From positions 1,984,001-2,048,000 of the forward strand of contig NZ_CP098415.1 of NCBI RefSeq assembly GCF_023702125.1: a stretch of 64,000 bases of DNA. Direction: 5' to 3'. The position numbers were made by a program, and so were the translations under genes. Below, piece by piece: positions 12,922 to 52,450 of this stretch. The stretch's first letter is position 1, and every line of letters begins with the position of its first letter. The notes beneath the pieces are model-generated. The model was not told the origin of the DNA. It made no database searches and saw only the letters and a program-made list of their open reading frames with translations. The DNA comes from Halorubrum hochsteinianum. GTDB lineage: Archaea > Halobacteriota > Halobacteria > Halobacteriales > Haloferacaceae.

Positions 12922-13035
12922 CTCACGGAACCCGATGCGACGCTCACGGAACCCGATGCGACGTTCACGGAACCCGACGATGCGACGTTCATGGAACCTG
13001 ATGATGCGACGTTCACGGAACCCGACGATGTGACG
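12922..13035. repeat. Five tandem 21/24-base repeats upstream of the dehydrogenase promoter
   Basis: Five consecutive copies of a unit whose core reads TTCACGGAACCCGACGATGC followed by GACG: 12922-12942, 12943-12963 (21 bases), 12964-12987, 12988-13011, 13012-13035 (24 bases). Copies differ by a three-base deletion and single substitutions. They fill the gap between the dehydrogenase TATA box and the ribosomal operon. A small peptide could be read across them on either strand, but neither reading continues into a plausible protein, so a regulatory or replication-slippage origin is more likely. Confidence 0.75.
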
Positions 13036-13140
13036 CTTGCGGGACCGCGCGGGACCGACCTGACGGGGGCAGTCCGCCGCCGTGAGGGTGTCGACGACGA
13101 CCGTGGGAACCCCCCACAGCGACCCGACCGATTCGTGATG

Positions 13141-30726: not shown

Positions 30727-31192
30727 CTACGAAGTTGCCTTTTAAGCTGCGGTAGTTCGTGAATTCGCGGTCGATCAGGCGGACATCTCTGATCTGACCG
30801 AGACAGTCGAATCCCCGGTCGCTCGGCTGTACGTTGCGGTGATTGCTGTTTATAGATCACCGACCGATACGAACACCGCCGAAGCCCCAGTCGCGAAGCG
30901 GGCGCACGCTCGGGGCGCTCCTCACTCGGTCGCTCCGCTTCCTCGTTGCGGTGCTGCCGTCGCCTGCGCCCGCTTCGCGACTGCCCCTTCGAATCCCGCC
31001 CCCGCCCCGCACAGCACCTCGGGCCTCCCCAGCCTCGCGGCTCGCGCTCTCCGAGCGCTCGCCGCGTCCCTCGCGCGTGCGACTCGCGGCCTTCGGCCGC
31101 TCGTCGGCACGCGCCACCGCAATTCAGATCGGAATATGATCGGCGGCCGACCACCCGACCGGTTTAAGAACGCCGAGGGCGAGCGACTCCGC
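30727..31192. other. Intergenic region holding repeat element copy A
   Basis: About 466 bases between DUF5785 and dgcN. Its central part is repeat copy A (30855-31121). The right flank has the TATA-like TTTAAG near 31164, about 29 bases before dgcN. Open frames across the repeat are artefacts of high GC content. Confidence 0.6.
30855..31121 (+). repeat. Modular non-coding repeat element, copy A
   Basis: Begins near an ACCGCCGAAGCCCC block and ends at CGCCACCGCA. Inside are shared blocks: CGCGACTGCCCCTTCGA, CCTCCCCAGCCTCGCGGCT and CCGCGTCCCTCGCGCGTG, separated by short palindromes such as GGCCTTCGGCC. The same ordered blocks occur at 52039-52370 in the same orientation and at 51181-51438 inverted. 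No protein is encoded. Confidence 0.75.
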
Positions 31193-32290: not shown

Positions 32291-33333
32291 GCCTCGACGC
32301 CGAGTTCGAGCGGGTGTCCATGCCCTTGGAGAACCCGTTCACGATCTCGCGGGGGACCCAGACGGCGGCCGAGAACGTGGTCGTCCGGGTGACCGACGAG
32401 GCGGGGATGACCGGCGTCGGCGGCGCGGCCCCCTCGTCGCACTACGGCGAGACGGCCGACACGGTCGAAGCGGTCATGCCGGACCTGCTCGACGCGGTCG
32501 AGCGCGTCGGCGACCCCCACGCGCTCCACGCGATCGAGTCCGAACTGCGCGCGGTCGTCGAGGGGAACCCCGCCGCCCGCTGTGCCGTCTCGATCGCGGT
32601 CCACGACCTCGCGGCGAAGCGGCTCGGCGTCCCCCTCCACCGCCTGTGGGGGCTCGATCCGAGCGACGCGCCGAAGACGTCGTTCACGATCGGACTCGAC
32701 GACACCGACCGCGTGCGGGAGAAGGCCGCCGACGCCGTCGAGGCCGGCCACTCGGTGCTGAAGATCAAGCTCGGCACCGTCCGCGACCGGGAACTGGTCG
32801 ACGCGGTCCGCGAGGCCGCGCCCGACGCCCGCCTCCGCGTCGACGCGAACGAGGCGTGGACGCCGAAGGAGGCGGTGCGGAAGGCCGAGTGGCTCGCCGA
32901 CCGCGACGTGGAGTTCGTCGAGCAGCCCGTTCCGGCGGAGAACCCCGAGGGCCTCCGGTACGTCTACGAGCGCTCCGAACTGCCCGTCGCCGCCGACGAG
33001 TCCTGCGTCACCGCCGCGGACGTGCCCGCGATCGCCGACCGCTGTGACATCGCGAACCTGAAGCTGATGAAGACGGGTGGCCTGCTGGAGGCGCGCCGCG
33101 CGATCGCCGCCGCGCGGGCGCACGGCCTCGAAGTGATGTGCGGCTGTATGGTCGAGTCGAACGCCTCCATCGCGGCCGCCGCGCAGCTCGCGCCGCTCTT
33201 AGATTACGCCGACCTCGACGGGTCGCTGCTGCTCGCCGAGGACCCGTACGCTGGGATCAACCTGTCGGACGGCGAGATACGGCTCGCCGAGCAAGACCGC
33301 GCGGGGACCGGCGCGCGGCCGGCGGAGGAGTGA
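32287..33333 (+). CDS. dgcA: Enolase-superfamily epimerase, DgcA type
   Basis: A 348-aa member of the enolase superfamily, often annotated as dipeptide (Ala-Glu) epimerase. It has the acid/base lysines K159 and K161 (SVLKIKLG), the metal ligand D186 in RVDANEAW, EQPVPAENPEG, the third ligand in AADESC, and LKLMKTGGLLEA. Coupled to the DUF1611 gene, a racemase for N-acetyl-glutamate is more likely than a cell-wall dipeptide epimerase, since haloarchaea lack murein. Confidence 0.83.
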   Translation: MSLDAEFERVSMPLENPFTISRGTQTAAENVVVRVTDEAGMTGVGGAAPSSHYGETADTVEAVMPDLLDAVERVGDPHALHAIESELRAVVEGNPAARCAVSIAVHDLAAKRLGVPLHRLWGLDPSDAPKTSFTIGLDDTDRVREKAADAVEAGHSVLKIKLGTVRDRELVDAVREAAPDARLRVDANEAWTPKEAVRKAEWLADRDVEFVEQPVPAENPEGLRYVYERSELPVAADESCVTAADVPAIADRCDIANLKLMKTGGLLEARRAIAAARAHGLEVMCGCMVESNASIAAAAQLAPLLDYADLDGSLLLAEDPYAGINLSDGEIRLAEQDRAGTGARPAEE

Positions 33334-33370
33334 AACGGGGACGGCAAACGGTCGCTGCGGACGATCGGCG

Positions 33371-51180: not shown

Positions 51181-51438
51181 TGCGGTGGCGCGTGCCTGCG
51201 AGCGTGCCGCCGAAGGCGGCCGCGAGGAGCACGCGCGAGGGACGCGGTGAGCGCCCGGAGGGCGCGAACCGCGAGGCTGGGGAGGTGTGAGGCTGCGGTC
51301 GCTGTGCGTTCCCGCGAGCGAAGCGAGCGGGAGCACGGAAGTCGCAGCCCGCGCAGCGAAGCGAGCAGGAACGTCTTCCGGTGGGGCGGGACCCGAAGAG
51401 ACGGCCGGGGCTTCGGCGGTCTCCGTGTCGACCGCTAG
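51181..51438 (-). repeat. Modular non-coding repeat element, copy B (inverted)
   Basis: Read on the minus strand it begins CTAGCGGTCGACACGGAGAC followed by CGCCGAAGCCCC, and ends CACGCGCCACCGCA. The inner blocks match copy C closely, including CCCCACCGGAAGACGTTCC, TCGCTTCGCTCGCGGGAACG and CCTCCCCAGCCTCGCGG. Small palindromes such as GCCGCCTTCGGCGGC vary between copies. It faces copy C across the DUF5802 gene. Confidence 0.8.
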
Positions 51439-51930: not shown

Positions 51931-52450
51931 TACTCGGTCGATTTCGGCTTTCAGTTATGTGCTGGTAACGCGGAATCGACTGCGGACGGGTCCGATTTCG
52001 CAGTTGTTCGGGTAAATGATGAGATCGGTAGTTACAACCTAGCGATCGGCACGGAGACCGCCGAAGCCCCAGCCGCGAGGACTCCCGCGGCTCGTTGCGC
52101 TCCTCGCTCGTTCACCTCGTTCACCCGCTGTGGTGTCGCCGCCGGCGACCCGTGGCGCGTAGCGCTACGCTGCTTACGTCGCCGGGGTTCGTCCTCGCGA
52201 CTGCCCCTTCGAGTCCCGCCCCACCGGAAGACGTTCCTGCTCGCTTCGCTCGCGGGAACGCACAGCGACCGCACCTCACGCCTCCCCAGCCTCGCGGCTC
52301 CCTTCGGTCGCCGCGTCCCTCGCGCGCGCTCCTCGCGCCCTTCGGGCGCTCGGAGGCGCGCGCCACCGCACACAGCTCAGTTATACCGGATGTCAGCTGT
52401 ATCGCCGTCGCAGACGCACCTTTTAGGTCGCCGGGAGTCGCCGTTCGGGT
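51931..52450. other. Intergenic region holding repeat element copy C
   Basis: About 520 bases between the DUF5802 gene and the Vms1-type gene, mostly repeat copy C (52039-52370). After it lies the TATA-like CTTTTAGG at 52420-52427 for the next gene. Confidence 0.6.
52039..52370 (+). repeat. Modular non-coding repeat element, copy C
   Basis: Starts CTAGCGATCGGCACGGAGAC followed by CGCCGAAGCCCC and ends CGCGCGCCACCGCA. It has the same inner blocks as copies A and B in the same order and carries an extra segment (about 52085-52195) lacking in B. Short palindromes include GTAGCGCTAC and GCCCTTCGGGC. No coding potential is evident. Confidence 0.8.

Follow-up and report, generated by a model that had tools for sequence, protein, structure and literature searches.

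A 64,000-nt stretch of the Halorubrum hochsteinianum genome (positions 1,984,001 to 2,048,000 of contig NZ_CP098415.1, hereafter “the window”) contains a long, gene-free sequence that occurs there three times, which raises the question of what kind of element this is, how it spread, and how it changes. The question reaches beyond one locus: the element is present across a widely studied archaeal genus, occupies ~1% of the chromosome, and can mislead gene calling and assembly. The block ACCGCCGAAGCCCC is found at exactly three places in the window (30875 on the plus strand, 51420 on the minus strand, and 52057 on the plus strand), and each time it is followed by an identical order of blocks that closes with CGCCACCGCA or a similar sequence, as a preliminary description of the locus had claimed. 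The three copies are unequal, with copy A being canonical and copies B and C altered (Table 1). The preliminary description placed copy A at 30855–31121. The end of that interval is right, but its start cuts into a leader unit, with the core beginning 20 nt further on; because the leader unit is part of the element in many copies, the 5′ boundary lies upstream of 30855.

Table 1. Copies of the element in the window, and the parts of copy A (window coordinates).
Feature	Position	Strand	Remarks
Leader unit of copy A	30807..30874 (about)	+	GTCGAATCCCCGGTCGCTCGGCTGTACG ... TTTATAG ... ACGAAC; one unit, tandem at other loci
Core of copy A, canonical element	30875..31121	+	
Hairpin H1 of copy A	30880..30991	+	
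H1 basal helix, copy A	30880-30884 with 30987-30991	+	
H1 internal loop, copy A	CCC 30885-30887 with CCC 30984-30986	+	19-bp helix inside
Conserved linker CCTCGGGCCTCCCCAGCCTCG, copy A	31017..31037	+	
Hairpin H2 of copy A	31036..31066	+	Variable palindrome; the sister genome G020 has a replaced H2 at the same site
Conserved linker TCCCTCGCGC, copy A	31067..31076	+	Overlaps the foot of H3
Hairpin H3 of copy A	31073..31114	+	
Copy B	51181..51421	-	Most of H1 gone; extra insert before the CCTCCCCAGCC linker
Copy C	52057..52370	+	Two-hairpin insert in the H1 loop and a second insert before the CCTCCCCAGCC linker

The element is ~245 bp long, lies in gene-free intergenic DNA, and consists of hairpin H1, a linker, hairpin H2, a second linker, and hairpin H3. 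H1 has a 5-bp basal helix, a near-invariant internal loop of three C residues on each side (“3C × 3C”), and a 19-bp helix. The internal loop reads CCC/CCC in 209 of 222 H1 sequences. For the basal helix, three forms with compensating changes were seen: CGAAG/CTTCG (127 cases), CAAAG/CTTTG (81), and GAAAG/CTTTC (7), the last of them in other genera. H2 and H3 are palindromic, with sequences that vary, and are flanked by fixed linkers. Upstream of the core are leader units of 51–69 bp that have ~15 bases in common with the left arm of H1 and are often arranged in tandem (e.g., at L012, L017, and L019). Four identical tandem units precede the copy at site A in G008 (L062), an identity that suggests a very recent unit expansion. 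There are no terminal inverted repeats; on direct reading, the 5′ ACCGCCGAAGCCCC and the 3′ CGCCACCGCA are not inverted copies of each other. With its ordered hairpins and linkers, no gene, and no inverted ends, the element is indeed a long, modular, non-coding repeat. It is also, as first described, unlike an insertion sequence in having no gene: copies of the ~245-bp core diverge in an indel-rich, non-coding manner.

A genome-wide search revealed a family far larger than the three copies in the window. Using blastn, at least 40 places scored in the same genome, and the best non-self copies reach E = 1e-75, which excludes chance. A covariance model (R1), built on the H2–H3 part of the element, identified 126 places at E ≤ 0.01, and 115 of these have E < 1e-3; all are on the 2.96-Mb contig, with none on the 101-kb second contig. 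The copies are intergenic, and both their positions and their strands are random, so regular spacing or strand polarity can be rejected. The orientation relative to the neighboring genes is likewise not fixed (++ 18, +− 15, −− 14, −+ 11), and a role as a regulatory leader or terminator was rejected because the copies have no orientation preference relative to genes. The same covariance model detected the family in all 22 congeners, with 15 to at least 101 copies each, and gave a single weak match in one of 16 genomes of other genera. An exact 20-base pattern, searched over named genomes, was found almost only in Halorubrum among the matches listed; these also included Haloparvum sedimenti, Halobellus captivus, Halorussus litoreus, and other haloarchaea. 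Haloparvum, Halobellus, and Halorussus have the CCTCCCCAGCC – H2 – TCCCTCGCGCG – H3 part in common with the Halorubrum family, and G024 and G029 have the complete order GAAAGCCCCC – H1 – GGCCCCTTTCAGTCCCGCCCC – CCTCCCCAGCC – H2 – TCCCTCGCGCG – H3. Since this block order is shared with other haloarchaeal genera, the family extends past the genus Halorubrum. Outside chromosomes, it was seen in one plasmid record and in no phage, and carriage by phage or plasmid was rejected on these grounds.

Comparison of occupied and empty sites indicates that gains or losses of copies have taken place within the genus. At site A, an element is present in H. hochsteinianum and ten congeners (in reduced form in the case of G002) but is lacking from G001, G011, G014, and G018, though all four of these genomes carry the family; G006 and G013 lack an element at site B. 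Comparisons with the sister genome, G020, and other congeners turned up no insertion that was both recent and clean, with ends or a duplication that could be defined. Three G020 copies without a counterpart (L124, L127, and L129, compared with L307, L310, and L312) were rejected as clean empty-site cases because H. hochsteinianum has a different gene at each of these places. Three shared copies (L117/L005, L118/L147, and L122/L167) have a gene-sized indel nearby. It is possible that elements flag places of gene turnover, a link for which the baseline is too small. Comparing the 5-mer at the 3′ end with that at each of the 5′ starts considered, the 5′ boundary being uncertain, gave no excess of identity of the kind that a target duplication would leave. 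A search with PF01797 returned no candidate Y1 (REP/IS200) transposase in H. hochsteinianum (G000) or in five congeners (G002, G004, G005, G017, and G018), all carriers of the family. Mobilization by a REP/RAYT or IS200 system of the present genome is thereby rejected, and the spreading enzyme is not a Y1 transposase encoded there. The remark that the dispersal enzyme is not obvious has held up: a REP-associated tyrosine transposase, for which a check had been proposed, is absent from the genome.

Evidence for ongoing change comes from the hairpin modules. In 58 copies of the H. hochsteinianum genome for which all modules could be parsed, the similarities of the H1 loop, H2, and H3 are uncorrelated (Mantel r of −0.02, −0.00, and −0.09), meaning that these modules reassort freely among copies. 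The sister genome allows the same site to be compared between two genomes, since H. hochsteinianum has an element at the corresponding site for 17 of the 20 G020 copies sampled. Across 15 parsed shared sites, including that of copy A, identity is <80% for H2 in 11 and for H3 in 5, and the H1 loop is replaced at about half (the L098/L114 H1 loop was left out of this comparison). A replacing module often has a near-identical match at other loci, which are candidate donors on the strength of that similarity. The clearest swap is L026/L115, where 500 bp are nearly identical and the difference is almost only H2. Six of 222 H1 sequences are flipped at their site, and in three of these the inversion takes in the internal loop, so that it reads GGG/GGG; H1-less and half-H1 forms also occur. 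Gene conversion, which is efficient in Haloferax volcanii (PMC8223754), would be the agent of the module swaps, judging from sequence comparison. With >100 natural replicates of module exchange per genome, ectopic gene conversion and palindrome dynamics become measurable in an archaeon.

The reading we favor, with a probability of roughly 0.65, is that the element belongs to an old, non-autonomous, dispersed palindromic DNA family of haloarchaea that was amplified in Halorubrum and now evolves mainly by ectopic gene conversion. Under this model, (i) the hairpins would matter as DNA; (ii) the conserved linkers would provide the homology at which ectopic gene conversion from copy to copy is anchored; (iii) inversion and deletion of H1 would result from recombination or slippage between its arms; and (iv) the original spread would have been due to an enzyme that worked in trans on the strand in its folded state and possibly recognized the 3C × 3C loop. 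The helices could equally be maintained by selection for a structural or regulatory function.

The first of these steps bears on whether the family acts as DNA or as RNA. Among 44 H1 sequences, 94.6% of cells are paired, versus 83.2% in shuffled and about 40% in slid controls, and changes in the helix are two-sided in 140 cases versus one-sided in 3. RNA helices normally tolerate G·U. Here, G·T and A·C mismatches number 28 versus 46 in H1 and 9 versus 10 in H2, with no G·T excess. The two-sided changes, the near-absence of wobble, and the lack of a G·T excess argue for a fold at the DNA level rather than in RNA; the counts are small, and the helices may matter as folded DNA, or the palindromes may be copied and corrected as DNA. 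We consider it unlikely that the family is instead a structured non-coding RNA, or an RNA-level regulatory family, whose transcription a TATA box in the leader unit would drive. Such an RNA would fit the strong covariation of the helices and the TTTATAA located ~25 bp before the core in some leaders. However, this TATA box is absent from many copies, the orientation relative to neighboring genes is not fixed, one-sided changes are almost absent, and Rfam has no match to copy A at E ≤ 1 or to five other loci at the gathering score. A known RNA family, which the preliminary description had left to be checked, is rejected by the Rfam result together with the lack of wobble excess.

Some copies carry additional material. 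Inserts of ~47–60 bp, each with two small hairpins, fall into several types, and most of them occupy fixed points within H1 or within the linkers (L018, L022, L029, L074, L082, L084, L087, L093, L094, and window copies B and C). The type AGCGAG...GGCGAC has identical ends at the two separate points where it is found, and one insert present in L084 is missing at the same site in G020. A relative of one insert type lies outside the main element, at positions 189–245 of L135 in G009, 1.3 kb from an IS200-type transposase gene. The two-hairpin inserts resemble the terminal-only PATEs of Haloquadratum (PMC3119063), a likeness that may provide a lead. These inserts lend some weight to the idea that the whole element is a PATE-like remnant of IS605/IS1341-type transposons, formerly moved in trans by such a transposase. 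The PATEs and SMRs of Haloquadratum walsbyi are, like the Halorubrum element, haloarchaeal, transposase-free, palindromic (near the ends in PATEs), and numerous, with small elements nested in palindromes (PMC3119063). The ends of PATEs resemble IS605-type ends, whereas no such ends were found here in comparison with six Y1 loci; beyond the insert, nothing in the main element matches these loci convincingly. Given also that six genomes carry the family and no Y1 transposase, an origin as such a remnant is improbable. SMRs have inverted ends, which are absent from the Halorubrum element, and a different architecture.

In kind, the element resembles dispersed palindromic elements of the REP/ERIC/BOX type; the family itself was found neither in Rfam nor in the literature searched for Halorubrum repeats and for haloarchaeal MITEs and REP. 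Insertion sequences code for a transposase, and this element codes for none. MITEs are similarly small, dispersed, and non-autonomous, but the Halorubrum element lacks terminal inverted repeats, and a target duplication was not detected. The ERIC and BOX elements of bacteria are intergenic and gene-free, being built as a long imperfect palindrome or as ordered modules, and are not known to have a mover of their own; the Halorubrum element shares all of these properties. It is unrelated to them in sequence and domain of life, and differs in its three-hairpin order, 3C × 3C loop, and free module reassortment. REP sequences are short, non-coding, intergenic, palindromic, non-autonomous, and present in many copies (PMC3116915). 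Except for shortness, this also describes the Halorubrum element, with its ~115 copies, and the likeness extends to BIMEs and REPINs. REP sequences are far shorter and are associated with a RAYT, whereas the Halorubrum element has ~245 bp, three hairpins, exchangeable modules, and no RAYT in its own genome; it is thus larger and more complex than REP, as initially proposed.

It is quite doubtful that a nucleoid, segregation, or repair protein binds the copies on the chromosome, with selection maintaining them as its sites and dispersal being secondary. Consistent with binding sites, the linkers and the internal loop are conserved across families, and the location is almost exclusively chromosomal, the second contig, plasmids, and phages contributing one plasmid record in all. 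On the other hand, the copies are distributed at random over positions and strands, congeners differ in copy number (15 to >100), and single sites are gained or lost. There is also a slim chance that a dedicated haloarchaeal system recognizes the folded hairpins via the 3C × 3C loop and the linkers and actively swaps and flips hairpin cassettes between dispersed sites; if true, this would be a palindrome-cassette exchange without a described counterpart.

Two further features of the window are separate from the element. Positions 12955–13046 contain three to four tandem copies of the 24-bp unit GATGCGACGTTCACGGAACCCGAC. At 33321–33368, distant from any element, G020 is longer by about 320 bp.
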